From NCBI GenBank assembly GCA_951394045.1, contig OX595985.1, positions 5,642,001-5,706,000 of the forward strand: DNA of 64,000 bases. The letters run 5' to 3'. Positions within the stretch are counted from its first letter, which is position 1, and each line of letters opens with the position of its first letter. The position numbers and the translations under genes are program-made. Source of the stretch: Nitzschia sp. DOCU1. Its lineage: Eukaryota; Bacillariophyta; Bacillariophyceae; Bacillariales; Bacillariaceae. The notes beneath the pieces are model-generated. The model ran no database searches. It was not told the DNA's origin and saw nothing but the letters and a program-made list of their open reading frames with translations. Below, one piece after another: positions 3,820 through 62,100 of the stretch.

Positions 3820-4309
3820 CGCTGTTGCTCACCGATAGCAACAGTACCTACCAACATACAAATGCCGATGATGGAGATGGCGGGTTTGGCGTGCGTCTTT
3901 GGTATGTTGTGTGCAGGCGCGGATGGCAGAGGATTCTGACTAAACGCCACCGCAAACAGCGTACCCATAACCTAATCTTGGTCAGGTGACAGACGGACCC
4001 CCCTCCCCCAAAATCGGACCCGGGAACCACCGTCAAAACTAGCGAAGACCCCCGCCTACGAGCCTGCCTTCCAACCCATTTCAAATTTAAATAAGGTTGT
4101 CGCCCGCCCAGCCTCCCACCGCATTTTGTTCCCATTCACTCCACTTTTTTCGGACAAGTGATGTCTCCCACATGTTTTACCTTCCTGTAAGTATTTTCGG
4201 CCACGAGTCTTGTTTCTTTTCTTTCGACCATGGTGCTAATAATTCCTTCTCTAAATGCTTATCTGTTGAGACGCTACCTCTGCACCAATTGAAGTTCGAA
4301 AGTCGACGG
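3820..4309. other. No gene seen upstream of the deacetylase
   Basis: Contains the 5' flank of the minus-strand deacetylase and the left edge of the minisatellite. A plus-strand ATG at 4158 followed by GTAAGT at about 4187 could be a tiny first exon, but no acceptor gives a sensible protein. Confidence 0.35.
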
Positions 4310-48988: not shown

Positions 48989-50251
48989 CATCTCTTCGAT
49001 GTCTCCGTAGACGGACGTCGTCCAATCGTACTCTACCTCTGGTATTCCCGAGTAGTCAGGCATATGTGTGCGGATACGGATGCACGCGTCGGACATGTTC
49101 GCGAGGTACGCGACGACACGCTTCGCCCTATCCAAGTGCCCGATCCGGGGAAGCGCACGGAAGCGCGACAGGGTCATAACGGCCGTCGTGACGTCGATAC
49201 GCCCGAGGGATACGGCCCACTGTAGAGAACCTACGACAGACTGGTAGTCTTTAGTTTCCTTATCGTTACATAGGCGTGTAGTGTCGAGCTCCGGATGGTC
49301 ATTCTTCTCCAGCGGGGAACGCACGCGACGCTTCGGCATGTGCCCGAAGAGGTCCTTGTACGTGTCGACCATGCGCGAGATATACTTCTTGGGCTTGAGG
49401 CACAGTATGCCATCGGAATCACGGACAAAATCGCTTCCGAGGTGAAAGCTTATGGGCCCGGTTCCCTTCAACTTGAACTTGTAGGTCTCCATTAGTCGTT
49501 CAGTGAAGGACTTAGGGTCCAGCATCGCCATCGCGAGGTCGTCTACATATACCCCTATGTACTCATAGACATCACCGTTCTTCCGCATCCATATGTCCGG
49601 TTCTGCCTTGCATGGAAAGAACCCTTCGTTTCGGAGGCACTCGGCGAATCTTTCGTGCCATCGTAATCCGCTGGTCCTGAGTCCATATAAGGCCTTCTTG
49701 ATGACCAATATATGCCCTTCAACTTCGGGTCCGAATTCGGGTCCCGCTAGAATGCAGACACGTTCTTTGGTCTTGGCCTCTAAGTAAGCATTACCTATGT
49801 CAGTAGCCCAGAGTTGAAGTCCGTTAAGCTCAGAGAGGAACGTGATCATACGAATCCCTCTCAACGAGACTAGTACTCCAGAGTACACACTGTCTACAGG
49901 TATGTCCGTCAGGTGTCCGTCGGCAACAAGCCGGGCCTTGTGTCGTCCGTCGTGCTTCACGTCGAAGACAAGGTGTACACGAATCTTCTTATAACCGGTC
50001 GGTACGACCTTACCTACGTCCTGAAACGTCTGGTATTCGTCCAACTGTGCGAGCTCTAATTTAGTAGCATCTGCCCACTTCGAGTTCCGGTTCATCTTGT
50101 CGAGCCAGACGGCTTCCTTGTAGTTCCGTGGGATCTGGAACCCGTACTTGTACTTAGGGGCGTTGTTGAACGAGCGGAGTTTCGCTTGGTTCGCCATACG
50201 GTAGAGCTTCTTCTGCCGCTTAGCGAGGTTGCGGAAACGCTTCCAACCTGG
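48989..50251 (-). pseudogene. Copia T, reverse transcriptase part
   Basis: Begins G/W-K-R-F-R-N at the insertion edge; contains F-D-V-K-H-D-G-R-H-K, Y-V-D-D-L-A and ends Y-G-D-I-E-E-M exactly where the Copia A LTR begins. RNase H is absent. Confidence 0.88.
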
Positions 50252-50467
50252 CCCCTGCGTTAGTACGGCCAACTCGCGCCGGCCGGGCTTCATTGTTCAT
50301 GGGCCTGCCGGGTCGGAGTTGGCAAACACATGGAAACATGTTAATATAATATATGGCGTTGAATAATATATTCCAAGTTGATTCAAGAGAAGCCCCCATT
50401 TGGTAACTTCCCCCAGTTCCAATTGCCCTATTAGCATCAGAAGCGTTAAATTATAAGCCTTGGAAGA

Positions 50468-50530
50468 ATCGTGACGAAATCGTGACGAAATCGTGACGAA
50501 ATCTTGACGAAATCATGGCGAGAACATGGC
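50468..50530. repeat. Left subterminal 11-bp repeats
   Basis: Four to five copies of gtgacgaaatc and variants (catggcgagaa), about 215 bp inside the left TIR end. Confidence 0.8.
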
Positions 50531-50752
50531 AGAACTTTGACACGGCTGTGACACAACCTTGACATGATATTGATAAATCCTTGACATAAATTGCACAAAG
50601 GCGACGATGGCGCCGTCGTCATCCGAGCTCTCTCATCTCTCTCTCTGCGATGATCGGCACTGCGACGGCCACGTTTCATTTGAGACAATACCCACTTTAC
50701 TCCATCTCCATAATCTGACAATCTGCAACTATATTAGAGTGGCGTTGTCAAC

Positions 50753-51256
50753 ATGTCATCCAGTGCTCCTCCCGTGGTGGCTAGCAGTAGCAATGGCGAC
50801 GTGAGTGCCTCATCACCTTCAGGAGGCAACAATGGGAATGCAGCGTCCGCAACGTCTACCGCCCGTCCGACCAAAGCCCAACCATATCAAGCTCTGTGGG
50901 ATTTAGATGGTCCAGCGTTGGACAAGTGGGTCAAGACGGTTCCTGCCATTCATGGTGAGTCGTAAGAGTCCAAACCAGTGATCGATGGACTGCAGCCCAT
51001 GTGAGGCAAACGATCGGAACTGCACGGGGAGGATTTCACTCGCACGTTTCTTCACTATCCGTTGCACTTCCGATAGTGTCGTACAGTTGCGCCTCCCTCG
51101 TTGCCTGTCTGACACCTCTTATTTTCTGTTGCCATTGAATTAGGATCTGACAAGAATCGCAAAGATTCCATGGTGACGGCTGAAGTTGCCGCTCAAGTTT
51201 GGAAGAACCTTTCTGCAGCTTTGAACGCCTTGATTGTCAAGTCGACGCTGTTGTAA
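50753..51256 (+). CDS. Small two-exon hypothetical gene (104 aa), possible captured fragment
   Basis: Exon 1 50753-50954, intron 50955-51143 (GTGAGT...TTAG), exon 2 51144-51256; the codon Gly is rebuilt across the junction. The N-terminus is Ser/Ala/Asn-rich, then A-L-W-D-L-D-G-P-A-L-D-K-W-V-K; exon 2 reads V-T-A-E-V-A-A-Q-V-W-K-N-L. Not recognised. Following sequence resembles a continuing protein in another frame (V-V-N-K-P-K-K), so this may be the 5' end of a captured gene with a frame break. A TATA-like tatatta lies about 25 bp upstream. Confidence 0.38.
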
Positions 51257-52313
51257 ATAAACCCAAGAAACACCTCGGTATCAGTGACAAGGCCGAACAA
51301 ACGGTTGCACTGCGTGTCATTTCCCCACCGATGAGCCTGTTCAATGACGTCGCGAAAGTTGTTTGCATCACCTCTGCTGCTTCTTCCGGAGAAATGGAAC
51401 AGTTGAGTCCAGCTTCGAAGATAGCACTCGCTGTGAAGGTTGTCCCAATGTCGCACGTTGTGTTGTTTCCAATGCACGGTAGGAGAACATTGTCTTGTTG
51501 CAATAAAGTTAAGTCAAGAGCGTCGGTGACTTCAGATTCCAAAGGAGAACGCCGGGGGAGTGTTGAGTTGCAGGTACACGTCCCGTCATCTTCTTGGTCA
51601 CGGCGAGTCTTGAGATCGTGGGCTGCGTACAAGTGCCTCCTTGCTCCTCCTTCAAATCCCGAAGTCATCTCATCGTCAATTGAGAGATCAGGGAATCCAT
51701 AGACGTTGGTCCGAAGGAGATCGCAGCCGTAGCAGATCACCGTGACTTCGATCCGGAGTGGTACGCTGGTGCCGCCCGCTCTCAAGTCGCCGGTGGCAAG
51801 AACCTTGGCGGAGGTCACCTCCAAGAAGTTAAACGGATCACACACCATACCTCGAAGGCTATTGTAGGCCCTGACTCCCGCATGTGGCCTGTTCCTCCAC
51901 TGTGACGTTTTTACCACCAAGAAGATGATGCATCATGGTGACTTCGATGAGCTTTTCGAATGGGATACTTCTTCTTGTTATTCTTGCTTTCTCACTGTTT
52001 TTGATTATCCTAGCTGAAAAGTGAGTGCGGCAGACGAGTTACACCTCCTTGTTCATGCACAGCAGCGAGGAACTGTACTACTAGAGTCGTCGTACCCGGC
52101 TAATGTCGTCAACACAAGATGGTAGTTATTGCTCTTTGAGCATGAGACGTAGCACCTCTAGTAATAATGTTCCTTTTGTCAACGAAGCAGATGACTGCAC
52201 CGAAAAACGTCGTATCTACCTCTTATAGTACTGTGCTGCTGCTGCCTTGTTCGCCAAGAATTCCAAGCATGATGACGATGCCCCACCTCCACCACCAGCA
52301 CCACATTTTTCTT
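51257..52313. other. HSF element interior, unresolved ORFs
   Basis: A 228-codon minus frame (51237-51920, only a TTG start) and plus frames overlap here without a recognisable domain. Probably captured exon sequence whose frame I cannot determine. 51960-52310 shows nothing coding. Confidence 0.35.
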
Positions 52314-53235
52314 TTATGTCACTTGGTTGGAGGAGTCTCCCTGGTTCTTTTGAGGGAATCCATCATCGAACATCTCACGTGGCATCATGATGCCCATCGC
52401 TCGAGCATCTGGTCGGAACTCGTCGATGAAATCGCGTTGACTAAAGATGTCAGCAAATAGATGCATGTCTTCCGACATCTTGCCGCTGCCTCCGATCAAA
52501 GCTCGTGGTGCAGTGTTGCGATCTGTGTAGTTCGTATGGCAGAAAGAGTCCGTCCCTCCTACCCCAAATGGATCCATGTAAGTGGAAGAAGTCGAAGCAG
52601 GCTGGCAGTTTACCTCCTTCTGCAACTGAAACGCCTCCTTCGGAATGGTATTCAGGTTTCCGAACAGGGGGTTCTTCAACGGGAACATTTGATCCATGCC
52701 AAACAGAGCCATGTTGCTACCCTCATTAAGGCGGTTGCGCTCGGAAGGCATGGATTCCATAAGACCAATAGGAGCTGGGGTGCAGCTCTTCTCGTCGTCG
52801 TCGTTTTGCTTGCCATCGGGGACAGGCGCCCGCTTAAGCAACATGCATAACTCAGGGATTCCCTGAACGAAAGAAGGATGGAAGTATCCACCTCGATTCT
52901 TCCCTGTACCGATGCGCTTCCATCCATAGATGTTAACTGTATTATAAGAAGCAGGTATCACCATGTTAGATTGTGCTTTGCCTAACGCCGCGCCCACGCA
53001 ATGCAGCCTACAATGCAAGGAACTTACGTTGCCTCTGGAAGCTCTTCAGTTTGGTTTGCTTGAAGTACTTCGGCATGATGGTAGCAACAAAGACTTCAGG
53101 ATTCCAGACTCGGAACGAATTGCCCCCTTCTTGCCAGGAAACAATATTAGCGTACCCCCGCCTTTCAGCATTCTCAAGCAAGTTGTGAAGCTTAGCTGGG
53201 AAGAAGTTAGTTGGGGTTTTCTTTTTCGACGGCAT
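52314..53235 (-). CDS. Heat-shock-factor-type transcription factor
   Basis: Exon 1 53235-53028, intron 53027-52937 (GTAAGT...ACAG, 91 bp), exon 2 52936-52314; 276 residues. HSF DNA-binding domain at about 8-100: F-P-A-K-L-H-N-L-L-E, I-V-S-W, S-F-R-V-W-N-P-E-V-F, P-K-Y-F-K-Q-T-K-L-K-S-F-Q-R-Q (recognition helix), L-N-I-Y-G-W-K-R-I (across the splice), G-G-Y-F-H-P-S-F and L-C. A basic N-terminus (S-K-K-K) may aid nuclear import. After the domain come an acidic/Met-rich region and a short tail; no clear heptad oligomerisation region, as in many short diatom HSFs. Splice sites and domain are intact, so it looks functional. It lies wholly inside the TIR element. Confidence 0.88.
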
Positions 53236-53314
53236 GTTGAATGGCTTTTCCTGAGATAATTCTCGAAGTCAAATTTATGATCTCCAGATTGCACTTCACA
53301 ATTTTCGGTCAGCG

Positions 53315-53686
53315 CTACAACTTTCTGTGATGATTCGTTTGGCCCAAGGGAAATCGCGCCGATGTCTTGTGCATCTCATGCATGATGGAAGAGTTGATTC
53401 CCCGACGTGGGGGGCGGTGCAACGCCATAAAACTCAACAAGTCCCCGGCATAAAAATTCAGGGGAAAGTTGAGAATCAAAAAGCTCAAACCCAGGCCATA
53501 TCCCAAGACGGAAACATCATTTGGCAAGGCCAATACACCCACACCCAAACAATCGGCTGTCAACAAGGCGACACCTTGCCACAAGACTAGTTTATTGTTG
53601 GACGACTCGATGGTAGTAGCAGCGGGTTCGCCGTCCTGTCCGTCGTGGTGGTCGCGGGGTTCATACGAGGGAACTGCTTGCATCAT
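53315..53686 (-). pseudogene. AAAP amino-acid transporter, N-terminal fragment
   Basis: From ATG 53686: about 32 polar residues, then G-V-A-L-L-T-A-D-C-L-G-V-G-V-L-A-L-P (first membrane segment of amino-acid/auxin permeases) and a second segment L-G-L-S-F-L-I-L-N-F-P-L-N-F-Y-A-G. It then runs into unrelated residues and stops. Full transporters have 10-11 segments, so only the 5' end was captured or kept. Confidence 0.75.
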
Positions 53687-53882
53687 CGTTGCTAATTTGA
53701 CGAGAGCGGCCGGGAATCGATCAAATCCTTATGTCATGATGATGATATCTTAGCTGGCAGTGGTAGTGGTAGTGGGTTGTCGATAAAAGTGCAACGAAAA
53801 ATGGAAATAGGAGTTTTGACAAAAGGATACGCGCGCGTGGAGTACACGACACTCGCACATATGCTCTCGCTATTTTACTACC

Positions 53883-54050
53883 ATGGCGAAATCATGGCGA
53901 AATCATGGCGAAATCATGGCGAAATCATGACGAAATCATGACGAAATCATGACGAAATCGTGAGGAAATCGTGACGAAATCGTGACGAAATCTTGACGAG
54001 ATCGTGACGAAATCGTGACGAAATCTTGACAGAACTGTGACGAGGTTTTG
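53883..54050. repeat. Right subterminal 11-bp repeats
   Basis: About fourteen copies of atggcgaaatc / atgacgaaatc / gtgacgaaatc. Same unit and strand sense as the left array, longer. Confidence 0.88.
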
Positions 54051-54240
54051 AGGAGAACCCGAGTGCCGGAAAGAACAAGATAAGTGGGGGCTTCCGCTGG
54101 CTTCCGCTATCGATTTCATGAACCAATATAAATATAAAATATCAATCACCAGTCAACCCACATTGGTATTGCCAACTCCGACCCAGCAGGCATATGAAAT
54201 AATGCCCGGCCGGCGCGAGTTAGCCGTACTAACGCATGGG

Positions 54241-56163
54241 CCTGGTAACTCTAGTAGGTTATTCTTAATGCCGTACTCTACTAGTGGAATCGGGTCGTCC
54301 GCAGCCATCGTCGTAAGGGGTTCGCTAGTGATCTCCCCGTTCTCCCATTCGACCATGACATTGTACATGGAGCCTTTGTACCTTGGGTCGCTCGCAGTGA
54401 GAGGTCCCTCATGCGAGACAATACCCTTGTACTTCCAGAGAACATTCCCTTCGAGCTCTCGTTCGATGTGCCAAATGACCTGGTCGTACGTCATCAGCTC
54501 CTCCTTTTCTGATTGGCCGATGTGGAGCTTGAACATGACTGGCTTCTGTTCGTGCTCGAGGTCATAGTGATGACGGTCGATGGAGTCGACGACTTCGGTA
54601 ACGGTCGCCCGATGGACCTCCCCGTTCTCGTCCTTGTCGAGCAGGAATGACCGTCCGATAAAGTCCGCGTAGTCGATAAGCGACAACGACGGCTTCGCGG
54701 CGTCGGCCTCGACGGCGTGACCGTTGTTGGGACCACGGTTGGACTCATCGGACCTAGATCTAACTACTTGCTCTGGTCCCCTAGCCGTGTCGTCGGCGCG
54801 TATATTGGGGGCTAGAGGGTCTTCAGCAGATCTAACTAAGGATCTATCAATTACCTTAAGAGTATCGTCCGTTAGTATACGATACGTCATGGCGTGTCCT
54901 ACATTGTCCGCGATCCCCACGAATCGTCCGCGGGCCTCCCGGCTCTCGGACGGGAAGGCAGGCTCGTTCACGGCGTAGTAGACGGGCTCGTAGAAGCGGA
55001 AGCGTAGGAGCGGGCTAATGTCAGGGGTGACTCCTGTGAGCAGGCGCATCGGGATGTTCCATCCGTGCCCCTTACACGCCGTGTGGTTGAGGACGAAGCA
55101 GACATACGTGAGTGCCAGTAGCCAACAGTACGCCGGGGCGCCGGTCCTGTCCAATACCGTATTGGTAAGTCGTTTGACGGTTTGGTACCTACGCTCGGCC
55201 GCGTTCTGCTGCTGCTGGTGCGGTTCACTCTGCCAGTCCTGAGTACACACGGCTCTAAGTATGTCCTTAACGCCCTGACTAGTCTCTAAGTTAGCTGAGT
55301 CACTAATCAGTTTGGTCGGCGCGCCGCGAATGCGAATGATGTCCGCGAGGACCTTCTTGAACTGTCGCTCGTTGCGAAGCGGGAACACATCACATACGCC
55401 CGTGTCAATGCCGACGAAGAACTGTGCCTGTGTGGCGCCATTATCAACAGCTGGCGTGTCGGAATAGACGGTATCCGTTGCCACCGGTTCTTCTCGTCTA
55501 CGTACATTCAAAGCGGGAAACGGGGATTTAAAAGTACGCTTTAAATGTGTACCTACTGGCATTCGAGCATACTGGGTTGAGTTCCGGAAGGTATGTTTAA
55601 CGACCTCGGAAGGCAACCATGCGAAGAGAGGCCTTTTGCTCTCATAGTCGGGTTCTTCGGGCTTCACTGCGCGACCACCGGACTTATTGGCTTCAACGTC
55701 TGGATCGCCAGTGTCCGGGTGCGGAGGTTTCGCGGCTTCGGGTTCTGGATCTCCCGGGCCCTCGGAGTCGTCGAAGGGCTCATGTGTATCGACGTACATG
55801 AGGTGGTCTGGGAGAGGTGCCTTATCAATGATAGTGTAGTCCCGGTAGAGGTTGGCTGCGGATACTACATAACGATTGGAGAACTCACGCAGCAGGGCGT
55901 CCTCGTGGAGTATAGCAGTTGAGATAACGTAATAGTCTTCGTCTACGTAGTTACCATACTCGTCGAAACCGTCATGGATGGCATGCTCGGCCGTTGACTT
56001 CACACATGGACGCGTGTCGTCCGGGTCCTCCCCGTCATTGTCTAGGACGGTGGGGTCCCAGTCGACGTCGCTAGTCATGGACTGATGACGTGTGGGAGCG
56101 TTGCCAGCTCGGTATCACTGGGCGGGCGCAGGTGGACGTACGGCAGACCGTTGCGTAGACTAA
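54241..56163 (-). pseudogene. Copia T, integrase part of polyprotein
   Basis: Open from 56078 to the insertion edge, with integrase residues S-D-S-A-N and N-A-A-E-R-R-Y, ending at E-L-P-G. A 4-bp insertion near 56080 (catcagtccatgac versus catcatgac) breaks the frame upstream. The reading continues in 50251-48989 as W-K-R-F-R-N. Confidence 0.85.
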
Positions 56164-56533: not shown

Positions 56534-57297
56534 CATGACATTTCCTTCGTTCCCTCTTCTCCCTACCGGGGACTCCTCAGATGATGATGAATCCTCTCGT
56601 CTACCGACGCCGCCGTCGCTGCCGTCGTTGCCAGTCATCAACCAGCGCCCAGCCCACTCCAAGTGGCGACAGCCATGTTGCATCCACCTCCTCCTCGTCT
56701 GATCAGACAAGCTCTACCAGTGATGAAGTTGAATGTCTGCAGGTCAGTTTGCCTGTCAAAGAAAGTGTCCTCGCAAATGCCACCATCGAGGACATTGTGG
56801 TCTCGGCAGGCCCCTCGAATCCAATCAAGAAGCCAAAGAAAGGGGCGCCTCCGAATTCAGAGCCTTGTACCAGACTTCAAAGCATCATGGATATCCCTAT
56901 ACTTGACTTGTCTGTGGATGACCTACGACCTTTTGTAAGCTCCATACAAATTAAAAGTGGGCGGCGCATGACAAAACTTGCATTGTGCCAGGCGATTGTG
57001 GAACGCAAGACTCGATACGAGCAAGACAAGGCCTCTGGCAAGGAGAATGAGAAGAAGGTTCCAGCTACAAAGAAGGGGAAGATTGCTAGCAACCGGGTCA
57101 TCATCAAACCCCGGTACTTCATCTCCATCTTCTTCTTCATATACAGTGGCCGCATCCCATTGGTTGTTGCGGTCAATATTATGTTGGGGTCGTTGTACCT
57201 CGTATTCTTCAATCTTTTGCAACATTTTGTCGCGCCGCTCTTTCCCTGCCTGTTGGTGGGTAGTATTGGTTCTATTAGTATTTCGTTGAGGCAGTGA
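56534..57297 (+). CDS. Second Harbinger ORF, possible frameshift
   Basis: Frame from 56581 gives 238 residues: Ser/Pro-rich N-terminus, I-P-I-L-D-L-S-V-D-D-L-R-P-F and M-T-K-L-A-L-C-Q-A-I-V-E-R-K (a SAP-like helix pair), and a Lys-rich stretch. From ATG 56534 a different frame gives acidic S-S-D-D-D-E-S-S, more like a true start, so a frame break near 56660 is possible. Harbinger elements normally encode a second DNA-binding protein that partners the transposase. No Myb repeat seen. It overlaps the transposase 3' end. Confidence 0.5.
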
Positions 57298-58431
57298 TTC
57301 CAAATACCCCCAGTTGTTGTTGGGGCCTTCAAGTAAAGGTGTGGCATTGATTGCCTCGTGATCCCCACTTCGTATATTGTTGTAGTTTAGACCGTCATAG
57401 TCGATGATAAAGTTGTGTAGGCGTGCAGCGACTTTACAAATCTGGATATTCTTCTCTAAAGAGAAATCAAGGTTGCGACGGAAGATACGCCACTTTGTCG
57501 TAAAAAGACCAAAGGTCATCTCCACTCGTATGCGTAGCTGACTCAGATAGTAGTTGAAAGTACGTTTGAGTGGCTCAAATTTTTCAGCGCCGCTGAATGG
57601 GATCATCATGGTATCACTCAGTGGGTACGCGTTATCCCCACCCAAGAAAACGTCACTGGGCAGATTGTTTAGCCAAGTATTCAATCTTTCGCACCGCATG
57701 AACGCCCTGGCATCATTGCATTTGCCAGGAGCGACAACACAGAAATATAAAAAGCGAAGGTTGGCATCACACACGCATTGAACATTTAGACCATAGCGTT
57801 GATAATGGCCACTGTAATAGTCGCCTTGATTGTCCACGTTAGCAGGCATTTCCGTACAGCATAGCCACCCATCAATAGCACCCACGAACCCATAAAAGAT
57901 GTCTCCTGCGGACGAGTGCTCGAGCCACTCATTCATGCATTTAGACAGTTCCTCGTCTGTTGTAGGGAGCCGGATCTCCAGTTCTGGCGATGCCATGGTG
58001 GCATGAAGGAAGAGCTGCACAATTCGCTCTACCGACTTGATACTCAATCCATAAATGTCGGCAATCGACTTCGGATATTCTCCGCCAAGAAATCGCAATC
58101 CTGAGCCAACGACCAGCTCAGGGTAGATAGGATCATTGCCTCGCGTCGAGGCTTTTGATTTTATAACATCAATTGTGATATCCCTTGCTAAGAGGATAAC
58201 AAGCCGGTCAAAACCCTCTTCAGAAACATTGTAGCGAGTTCCAAAGCCATCTGTATGACGTAGCATTTCTAGATGGTCCTCCCAAGTAATGCGTTTGAAC
58301 TTATACTTGACGTTGCGTTCGTTCTTTCGTTGTCGAACAAACCACATGCGAACTTGTGCGACCTCTTCATCATCTTGGTCCCCCAGTTCACCGTATTTAA
58401 GGGAATGGACAATGCCTTTGTTAAATACCAT
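56923..58431 (-). CDS. PIF/Harbinger transposase (DDE_Tnp_4 type)
   Basis: 502 residues from ATG 58431; the frame extends further upstream but only with a TTG. Catalytic acids: F-V-G-A-I-D-G-W (Asp 1), L-G-G-D-N-A-Y-P-L (Asp 2) and R-I-R-V-E-M-T-F-G (Glu). Before them a helix-turn-helix (S-I-A-D-I-Y-G-L-S-I-K-S-V). The C-terminus after the acidic E-E-E-D-G-D-E-V-P-G-F is antisense to the convergent ORF and becomes hydrophobic and Cys-rich, unlike the family; the original stop may have been lost. All catalytic residues are present. Confidence 0.9.
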   Translation of the reverse strand: MVFNKGIVHSLKYGELGDQDDEEVAQVRMWFVRQRKNERNVKYKFKRITWEDHLEMLRHTDGFGTRYNVSEEGFDRLVILLARDITIDVIKSKASTRGNDPIYPELVVGSGLRFLGGEYPKSIADIYGLSIKSVERIVQLFLHATMASPELEIRLPTTDEELSKCMNEWLEHSSAGDIFYGFVGAIDGWLCCTEMPANVDNQGDYYSGHYQRYGLNVQCVCDANLRFLYFCVVAPGKCNDARAFMRCERLNTWLNNLPSDVFLGGDNAYPLSDTMMIPFSGAEKFEPLKRTFNYYLSQLRIRVEMTFGLFTTKWRIFRRNLDFSLEKNIQICKVAARLHNFIIDYDGLNYNNIRSGDHEAINATPLLEGPNNNWGYLESLPQRNTNRTNTTHQQAGKERRDKMLQKIEEYEVQRPQHNIDRNNQWDAATVYEEEDGDEVPGFDDDPVASNLPLLCSWNLLLILLARGLVLLVSSLAFHNRLAQCKFCHAPPTFNLYGAYKRS

Positions 58432-58719
58432 GGTGGGATAGGAGAGCAAGAGGGAGAATAGTCTATTTAATAATAGCAATGCAACTCGTCAACTACACCG
58501 TCGGCAGTAAGTTTTGGTGAAATGGGCATTTCGGCCGTATCAATCCGATTGATCGAATGAGTGTGCGCAGTGTGCGCGCGCTGGGCAGGACAGGTGGTGG
58601 CGCGGGCGGTGATATCCAAAAGCGCGCTGGCGTCCTCCAGCACAGCTGGACGCTGGACGGAAAATCGCGCGCTGGACGGCAAAAACCGCCTGTTATCCTG
58701 GGCTCTAATCGGAATGGCG

Positions 58720-59107: not shown

Positions 59108-62100
59108 TTATTTTCTATCACTCCCCTCTTTCGCGCTCGGGGTGGTGCCCTCCTTTCCGTCTTCCTCCAAATCTTCTTCCTCTTCCTCTTCTTCCTCAAA
59201 TTCTACTTCTCCCATATTGGCGACGTCACCAGCGAAGAACATAAGTGGCTTGAGCTGTGCCCATATCTGCTGGTATCCCCAATGCTTAGAGAGGATGTTG
59301 GCGGGGTTCTCAGGCCCAGGCATGTGATAAAAGCCGACTATGCCCGCTGCAATAGCCTCGCAAACGCGATGGAAGCTAAGTGCAGTGTGCCGTTTATGTA
59401 GCTTGGCATGGGGCTTAGCAGAACTGTTAACCACCGACTCGTTGTCACCGAACATGTAGCTCTTACCAAGAATTGGGACACCTAAATAACGCAACGTGTT
59501 ACGTAGGTCCATTACTTGTTCTACACATGTTCTCGCGGCGACGAACTCCGATCCGTAGGTCGCTGTCTCGACGGTCGCTTGGCGTTTGGAGAACCAATCG
59601 ATCGGAGTGGCGTTAAGGAAGTGGAGTATCCCAGTGACCGAACGACCAGTTAGCATGTCGTGGTACAAGTTCGCGTCTACGTAGTGGGTCAATAGGACAT
59701 AGTTCCCGAGGGGTTCGGGGGCGTCATAGGGAATCATCTCTTCGATGTCTCCGTAGACGGACGTCGTCCAATCGTACTCTACCTCTGGTATTCCCGAGTA
59801 GTCATGCATATGTGTGCGGATGCGGATGCACGCGTCGGACATGTTCGCGAGGTACACAACGACACGCTTCGCCCTATCCAAGTGCCCGATCCGGGGAAGC
59901 GCACGGAAGCGCGACAGGGTCATAACGGCCGTCGTGACGTCGATGCGCCCGAGGGACACAGCCCACTGTAGAGAACCTACGACAGACTGGTAGTCCTTAG
60001 TTTCCTTATCGTTACATAGGCGAGTAGTGTCGAGCTCAGCATGGTCATTCTTCTCAAGCGGGGAACGTACGCGACGCTTCGGCATGTGCCCGAAGAGGTC
60101 CTTGTACGTATCGACCATGCGCGAGATGTACTTCTTGGGCTTGAGGCACAGTATGCCATCGGAATCGCGGACAAAATCGCATCCGAGATGGAAGCTTATA
60201 GGCCCAGTTCCCTTCAACTTGAACTTGTAGGTCTCCATTAGTCGTTCAGTGAAGGACTTAGGGTCCAGCATCGCCATCGCGAGGTCGTCTACATATACCC
60301 CTATGTACTCGTAGACGTCACCGCTCTTCCGCATCCATATGTCCGGTTCCGCCTTACATGGAAAGAACCCTTCGTTTCGGAGACACTCGGCGAATCTTTC
60401 GTGCCATCGTAATCCGCTGGTCCTGAGTCCATATAAGGCCTTCTTGATGACCAATATATGCCCTTCAACTTCGGGTCCGAATTCGGGTCCCGCTAGAATG
60501 CAGACACGTTCTTTGGTCTTGGCCTCTAAGTAAGCATTACCTATGTCAGTAGCCCAGAGTTGAAGTCCGTTAAGCTCGGAGAGGAACGTGATCATACGAA
60601 TCCCTCTCAACGAGACCACTCCAGAGTACACACTGTCTACAGGTATGTCCGTCAGGTGTCCGTCGGCGACAAGCCGGGCCTTGTGTCGTCCATCGTGCTT
60701 CACGTCGAAGACAAGGTGTACACGAATCTTCTTATAACCGGTCGGTACTACCTTACCTACGTCCTGAAAGGTCTGGTATTCGTCCAACTGTGCGAGCTCT
60801 AATTTAGTAGCGTCTGCCCACTTCGAGTTCCGGTTCATCTTGTCAAGCCAGACGGCTTCCTTGTAGTTCCGTGGAATCTGGAGCCCGTACTTGTACTTAG
60901 GGGCGTTGTTGAACGAACGGAGTTTCGCTTGGTTCGCCATACGGTAGAGTTTCTTCTGCCGCTTAGCGAGGTTGCGAAAACGCTTCCAACCTGGTAACTC
61001 TAGTAGGTTATTCTTAATGCCGTACTCTACTAGGGGAATCGGGTCGTCGGCAGCCATCGTCGTCAGGGGTTCGCTAGTAATCTCCCCGTTCTCCCATTCG
61101 ACCATGACGTTGTACATAGAGCCCTTGTACCTCGGGTCGCTCGCCGTGAGAGGTCCCTCGTGTGATACAATACCCTTGTACTTCCAGAGAACATTCCCTT
61201 CGAGTTCTCGCTCGATGTGCGAGATGACCTGGTCATACGTCATCAGCTCCTCCTTCTCTGATTGGCCGATGCGGAGCTTGAACATGACCGGCTTCTGTTC
61301 GTGCCCGAGGTCATAGTGATGGCGGTCGATGGAGTCGACGACTTCGGTAACGGTCGCCCGATGGACCTCCCCGTTCTCGTCCTTGTCGAGCAGGAACGAC
61401 CGTCCGATAAAGTCCGTGTAGTCGATAAGCGACAACGACGGCTTCGCGGCGTCGGCCTCGGCGGCGTGACCGTCGTCGGGACCACGGTCGGACTCATCAG
61501 ACCTAGACCTAACTACTTGCTCTGGTCCCTTAGCCGCGTAGTCGGCGCGTATATTGGGGGCTAGAGGGTCTTCAGCAGATCTAACTAAGGATCTATCAAT
61601 TATCTTTAGAGTATCGTCCGTTAGTATACGATACATCATGGTGTGTCCTAGGTTGTCCGCGATTCCCACGAACCGTCCACGGGCCTCCCGGCTCTCGGAT
61701 GGGAAGGCGGGCTCGTTCACGGCATAGTAGACGGGCTCGTAGAATCGGAAGCGCAGGAGCGGGCTAATGTCAGGGGTGACCCCTGTGAGCAGGCGCATCG
61801 GGATGTTCCAGCCGTGCCCCTTGCACGCCGTGTGATTGAGGACAAAGCAGACATACGTGAGTGCCAGTAGCCAACAGTACGCCGGGGCGCCGGTCCTGTC
61901 CAGTACCGTGTTGGTCAGCCGCTTGACGGTTTGGTACCTACGCTCGGCCGCGTTCTGCTGCTGCTGGTGTGGTTCACTCTGCCAGTCCTGCGTGCATACG
62001 GCTCTAAGGATGTCTTTAACGCCCTGACTAGTCTCTAAGTTAGCTGAGTCACTAATCAGTTTGGTCGGGGCGCCGCGAATGCGAATGATGTCCGCGAGGA

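Follow-up and report, generated by a model that had tools for sequence, protein, structure and literature searches.

Captured host-gene fragments in a probable Pack-type, Harbinger-like transposon of the diatom Nitzschia sp. DOCU1

Positions 5,642,001 to 5,706,000 of contig OX595985.1 of Nitzschia sp. DOCU1 (64,000 nucleotides, hereafter the window) contain a heat-shock-factor (HSF) gene between terminal inverted repeats (TIRs). This raises the question of what kind of element carries the gene, and whether such elements have multiplied HSF genes in this genome. An earlier note had described an unassigned non-autonomous DNA transposon with a complete HSF gene, and had proposed capture and copying as one route of HSF expansion in diatoms. 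The window element very probably belongs to a PHIS/Harbinger-like cut-and-paste family with CWG target duplications, as a non-autonomous copy of Pack type. Judged by its sequence, its HSF piece would be a captured remnant in which a frame with one DNA-binding domain (DBD) is still open.

Ends, target site and family

The ends and flanks of the element comprise the following features (window coordinates; the window lies on C1).

50251-54241 (C1:5692251-5696241): mobile element, delimited by its ends and target duplication
50248..50250: left target duplication CTG (flank comparison, joined-flank alignment)
50251..50325, + strand: left TIR, GCCCCTGCGTTAGTACGG... (end alignment, genome TIR matches)
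50467..50521, + strand: left subterminal 11-bp array (AATCGTGACGA), 4.4 units
53882..54030, + strand: right subterminal 11-bp array, 13.5 units
54167..54241, - strand: right TIR (end alignment, genome TIR matches)
54242..54244: right target duplication CTG (flank comparison, joined-flank alignment)

The TIRs are ~75 bp long, close to the ~74 bp given before, and the inverted ends of the window element are identical in 66 of 77 aligned columns; the boundaries were corrected from 50252-54240 to those above. The subterminal 11-bp arrays noticed earlier are present at both ends, and other copies of the family bear similar arrays, which might have a transposase-binding role. No Rfam match was found in window 50000-54500.

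The TIR was searched for in the 52-Mb assembly (63 contigs). It proved not to be unique, being common to 15 loci with one or both ends and differing interiors. Ten members of the family are two-ended (the window element, L009, L010, L011, L012, L016, L021, L022, L023 and a copy on C7), and L015, L017, L018, L019 and L020 are single-ended within the DNA examined. Two further exact ends (C1:5037823 and C4:2601191) were left out of the locus analysis. Because a 16-base terminal pattern with ≤2 mismatches gave 105 matches versus 75 for the reversed control, mainly exact terminal matches were used, and two-mismatch matches were accepted solely where they closed L021-L023. The terminal and TIR scans give lower bounds. 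The copies have ~300-450 bp per end in common (TIR and 11-bp array), and between these ends the interior is replaced by host-matching DNA. On C1, C9, C12 and C14, GCCAATGCGTTACTAG and GCCCATCCGCTACGAC occur repeatedly as pairs with a spacing of ~2.1 kb and both members on one strand (for example C14:1302015 and 1304123); they belong to another repeat family with similar termini.

The three bases outside the GCCCATGCGTTA-type terminus are identical, CAG or CTG, in all 10 two-ended copies. This 3-bp frame was picked after the flanks had been inspected, and was then applied alike to all two-ended copies. The 5-bp duplication CCTGG claimed earlier, a Transib-like reading, agrees in just 4 of these copies and fails in the other 6, and was rejected; CCTGG is best read as CTG with matching neighbour bases. 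When the flanks of the window element were joined at one CTG, they aligned over 600 bp without a gap to two sister Copia copies (95.2% identity to window 60694-61293 and 94.3% to 47012-46413). The empty site that had been noticed in these copies is therefore allelic, and the insertion is real. The TIR family, the duplication and the empty site bear out a non-autonomous DNA transposon with captured host genes that was inserted as a unit.

Transposase and superfamily

Four loci of the family hold a DDE_Tnp_4 transposase, intact or broken: L020, L016, the C7 copy and a C9 copy. The transposase open reading frame (ORF) in L020, P0010, matched PF13359 with an E-value of 8.3e-8 (32.4 bits versus a cut-off of 24.8), and copies at 93-100% are present in L016, in the C7 copy and on C9. 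Residues D197, D277 and E310 are invariant in 31 sequences, and the family transposase matched 48 places in the genome when used as a query. Among the relatives in this analysis, those with a named source belong to Cylindrotheca closterium (a record of taxid 2856), Cyclotella atomus and Bacillariaceae sp., which fits a diatom host, if indirectly. The presence of this transposase in four copies with shared ends places the family in PHIS (Harbinger-like), of the CWG-target type, so the element no longer has to be called unassigned. The TIRs with a 3-bp duplication in every two-ended copy are PHIS features as well, and CAG or CTG is the NuwaI-type 5'-CWG-3' target.

The PF13359 genome scan placed none of its 33 matches inside a two-ended TIR element. 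It missed the family transposase, which lies above the Pfam cut-off and was found through reading the ORFs of the copies. In the window element, no transposase was detected by the PF13359 and family-transposase genome scans, and Pfam on 13 ORFs returned only HSF and Aa_trans, in agreement with the earlier note. Sister copies encode, beside the transposase, a second, mostly helical protein (P0002), which gave no clear match to Myb or SANT; the family also has a third ORF, of 469 aa. The 545-aa relative P0126 is a transposase fused to a P0002-like partner domain.

A 521-aa DDE_Tnp_4 transposase ORF of another family lies at window 56923-58488 (- strand), near the Copia into which the element is inserted. 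It was considered as the transposase source. It is a different PF13359 protein and is absent from the 48 family-transposase places; no family TIR match was listed beside it.

Captured cargo and the HSF piece

Host donors were identified for 7 of the 10 two-ended copies (the window element, L009, L010, L011, L021, L022 and L023), and at the donor places no TIR match was listed in the lower-bound scans. Of the remaining three, L016 and the C7 copy carry transposase and L012 carries dispersed repetitive DNA. The interior of L019 matches dispersed blocks and was left out of the capture count. Host-gene DNA between TIRs, with identifiable donors, and transposase in relatives with shared ends are Pack-TYPE features. 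In the window element, 3210 of 3296 interior bases (97%) lie in five host-matching segments, whose matches are on C6, on C4 or in a gene family of C11 type.

50587..51241, + strand: segment of the gene at C6:3183394-3184709 (99.5% to L010 along 656 bp; its initial 113 bp match C6 exactly)
50753..51256, + strand: truncated 5' part of the C6:3183394-3184709 gene (ATG 50753, intron 50955-51143, STLL-stop at junction)
51242..51869: related to the C11:695889-696517 family (77% identity; donor placed to family level)
51956..52321: segment with 88% identity to C4:189844-190222
52314..53235, - strand: 3'-truncated HSF gene (ATG 53235; exon 1 53028-53235, intron 52937-53027 with GT..AG, exon 2 52314-52936)
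52322..53415: HSF-bearing segment, 95% to C4:184610-185726
53315..53686, - strand: truncated AAAP transporter 5' ORF (90 codons of the donor, followed by a chimeric continuation into the HSF-upstream stretch)
53416..53882: segment 98% to C6:3179719-3180178 (AAAP transporter donor)

The two C6 pieces keep the same order and orientation, are 5 kb apart at their source and each abut an element end. The C4 pieces are ~4 kb apart at their source and in opposite orientation. The AAAP transporter 5' part reported earlier is indeed part of the cargo (Pfam Aa_trans), and the supposed small spliced gene turned out to be the 5' piece of the C6 gene.

The HSF gene had been called complete and intact. Its splice signals and open frame are confirmed, but compared with the donor it is not complete. 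The C4 donor, the nearest chromosomal match (95% identical), encodes 389 aa with two DBDs. The element HSF encodes 276 aa with one DBD (Pfam E 1e-20); domain 1 is intact, domain 2 and the C-terminus are gone, and the last codons and the stop derive from the adjoining fragment. Residues 1-121, including DBD 1, are identical to the donor. Comparison of 273 codons gave 8.5 nonsynonymous differences (dN 0.013) against 16.5 synonymous ones (dS 0.103), a ratio of 0.13 (Fisher p ~1e-6; not polarised at the DNA level). At the protein level, the element copy has 8 substitutions and one insertion relative to the C4 donor; the 96% identical P0131 agrees with the donor at 6 of these substitutions and at the insertion, and with the element at 2, which places most changes on the element side. 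Relatives P0132, P0133 and P0134 (other records) have two HSF domains, and P0131 and P0136 have one in the sequence examined; P0131 lacks the start of domain 1 and keeps domain 2. The two-domain relatives and domain 2 of P0131 suggest that the two-domain state is older. The two-DBD donor HSF lies on C4:184305-185726 (L032:4211-5327 and 3906-4187), and several further HSF ORFs have two PF00447 matches, for example C4:377632/378472 and C6:393630/394455; the HSF loci L033-L036 stood outside the analysis.

L009 and L010 have the left C6 junction in common with the window element and carry 1315 bp of C6 donor DNA (99%); their interiors also include repetitive DNA. Part of this interior belongs to a high-copy family with tandem arrays of ~1.53-kb period, for example at C10:1891777-1900034 and C15:169130-175861. 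L011 holds 2.7 kb from C14:1800099-1802833 (98%), with a DUF2252 ORF of 383 codons versus 495 in the donor, and further pieces, among them ~285 bp at 79% to C3:145201-145485. L021, L022 and L023 hold 3.3 kb from C4:426356-429665 (97%) with an ABC1 kinase, which has lost the start region of the donor and has a frameshift relative to the continuous donor frame. Only 0-2 substitutions per ORF separate these three copies, so the packed DNA has been copied since its capture. Where the ABC1 cargo of L023 starts (oriented 366-400), there are two small insertions that the donor lacks, CTGGTAC among them; earlier excisions could have left them as footprints.

Copying of captured cargo, as the earlier note had proposed, is therefore borne out for ABC1; for the spread of HSF genes it is not. 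The PF00447 genome scan scored 150 matches of 241 candidates (matches are not equal to genes), and their places were compared by eye with those of the 10 two-ended elements. Only 1 of the 150 scored matches lies inside a two-ended element, namely the truncated window copy, so HSF expansion is not explained by this family here. HSF counts in such genomes can take in transposon-borne truncated copies, and this family adds one here. A chromosomal HSF match (C1:1774598-1774861) lies ~309 bp outside the right end of L023 (C1:1774289).

Capture, rival explanations and known systems

The family transposase would act in trans on the shared ends, probably with the P0002-type protein as its partner, and new copies would spread the packed DNA. 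Capture most likely began with two nearby insertions, each with one good end, that were mobilised together with the DNA between them, because the outer window pieces come from one 5-kb C6 stretch, ordered, oriented and abutting the ends; the odds for this mechanism are about even. The C6 pieces are little diverged and the middle is more so, from which we infer that the C6 capture was followed by replacement of the middle (C11-like, C4 and HSF) with a segment of longer separate history. In this second event, template switching during gap repair, or recombination with a pack element of older date, could have supplied the new middle.

That capture proceeded wholly by abortive gap repair, in which copying from several ectopic templates in turn filled the break left by excision, is possible but the less probable course. 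The five-piece mosaic, with abrupt junctions and little microhomology by eye, would fit it, as would the spacing and opposite orientation of the two C4 pieces. However, in three cargo sets the donor DNA forms one unbroken block (3.3 kb from C4, 2.7 kb from C14 and 1.3 kb from C6), a point qualified by the additional 79% piece of L011 and the repetitive DNA of L009 and L010, and the collinearity of the outer window pieces is explained more simply by two-ended capture. The high identity of the cargo to chromosomal loci would also be expected if an ordinary segmental duplication, or a join made in assembly, had produced the block and the TIRs were incidental. This is barely credible given the identical 3-bp duplications, the ends shared by 15 places and the allelic empty site, and donor blocks stop where element ends start. 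A working single-DBD regulator, perhaps driven from upstream of AAAP and scattered by transposition as a stress regulator, is an unlikely reading of the captured HSF. The open frame, the correct splice signals, the donor-identical DBD 1, the dN/dS ratio and the AAAP start upstream on the same strand speak for it. Against it stand the lost second DBD and C-terminus, the foreign stop and the changes on the element side; furthermore, the low dN/dS may predate capture, in the chromosomal lineage, and one HSF-bearing element copy was found. Slightly less likely still is that expression of this one-DBD HSF, downstream of the AAAP 5' region, sets it in competition with the two-domain parent, within a Harbinger-like family that actively shuffles regulatory genes; the transposon would then be a source of dominant-negative stress regulators.

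Several observations weigh against a Pack-type, Harbinger-like element with the history proposed above. Among the copies examined, none is both two-ended and transposase-intact: a single in-frame stop interrupts the L016 transposase, a Copia divides the C7 copy, and the C9 copy is also broken; the transposase of L020 is open, but its element runs off a 14.7-kb contig. Foldseek searches with models of the transposase and P0002 gave no PDB match at E ≤0.001; the best match of the transposase model, to the Mu transpososome, had an E-value of 0.0085, above this threshold. Among solved structures there was no credible sequence relative (one match, to a human receptor, E 0.028). Identity to the source is 98-99% for the C6 pieces and 77-95% for the middle segments, so the actual donors of the middle may be alleles or paralogues of the loci named here. 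The two capture models cannot be told apart from these data.

Land plants provide the best-described cases of gene capture by TIR transposons. In the present family, found in a 52-Mb genome, most two-ended copies have identified donors, some relatives bear a transposase and the target site follows a rule; because donor, junction and product can each be read, it offers a compact system for studying the capture process. In rice, Pack-MULEs hold gene fragments between conserved ends, and the window element resembles them in this respect; it belongs to another superfamily, with a 3-bp CWG duplication and a PF13359 transposase.

Pack-TYPE elements, PIF types included, are known in maize and rice (PMC8903248), and capture through mobilised neighbouring insertions is described there and in a review (PMC13317346). 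Like Pack-TYPE PIF/Harbinger elements, the window element is non-autonomous, with TIRs, a superfamily-type duplication, a host-gene interior and a related transposase in the genome; unlike those of maize and rice, it has a diatom host, a CWG duplication and long shared ends with 11-bp arrays (PMC8903248). Harbinger-like elements have been reported in Thalassiosira pseudonana (PMC2806351), and judged by titles and the starts of abstracts, the literature searched describes no Pack-type Harbinger in a diatom. In Ectocarpus, likewise a stramenopile, giant gene-carrying DNA transposons are KDZ, EnSpm and Sola-1, with families that lack a transposase homologue and are likened to Pack-MULEs, which are named there; in contrast to the CWG found here, Ectocarpus Harbingers have ANT or TNA duplications (PMC12477816). 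The NuwaI group of PHIS has the target rule 5'-CWG-3' and, like the present family, a DDE transposase and a second ORF (PMC4482050). In NuwaI, which is described there as mainly an animal group, the second ORF has a Myb/SANT DNA-binding domain; the diatom family has a third ORF of 469 aa, and P0002 gave no clear Myb/SANT match. The window element is of a known kind, in an unusual host lineage and with a CWG target.
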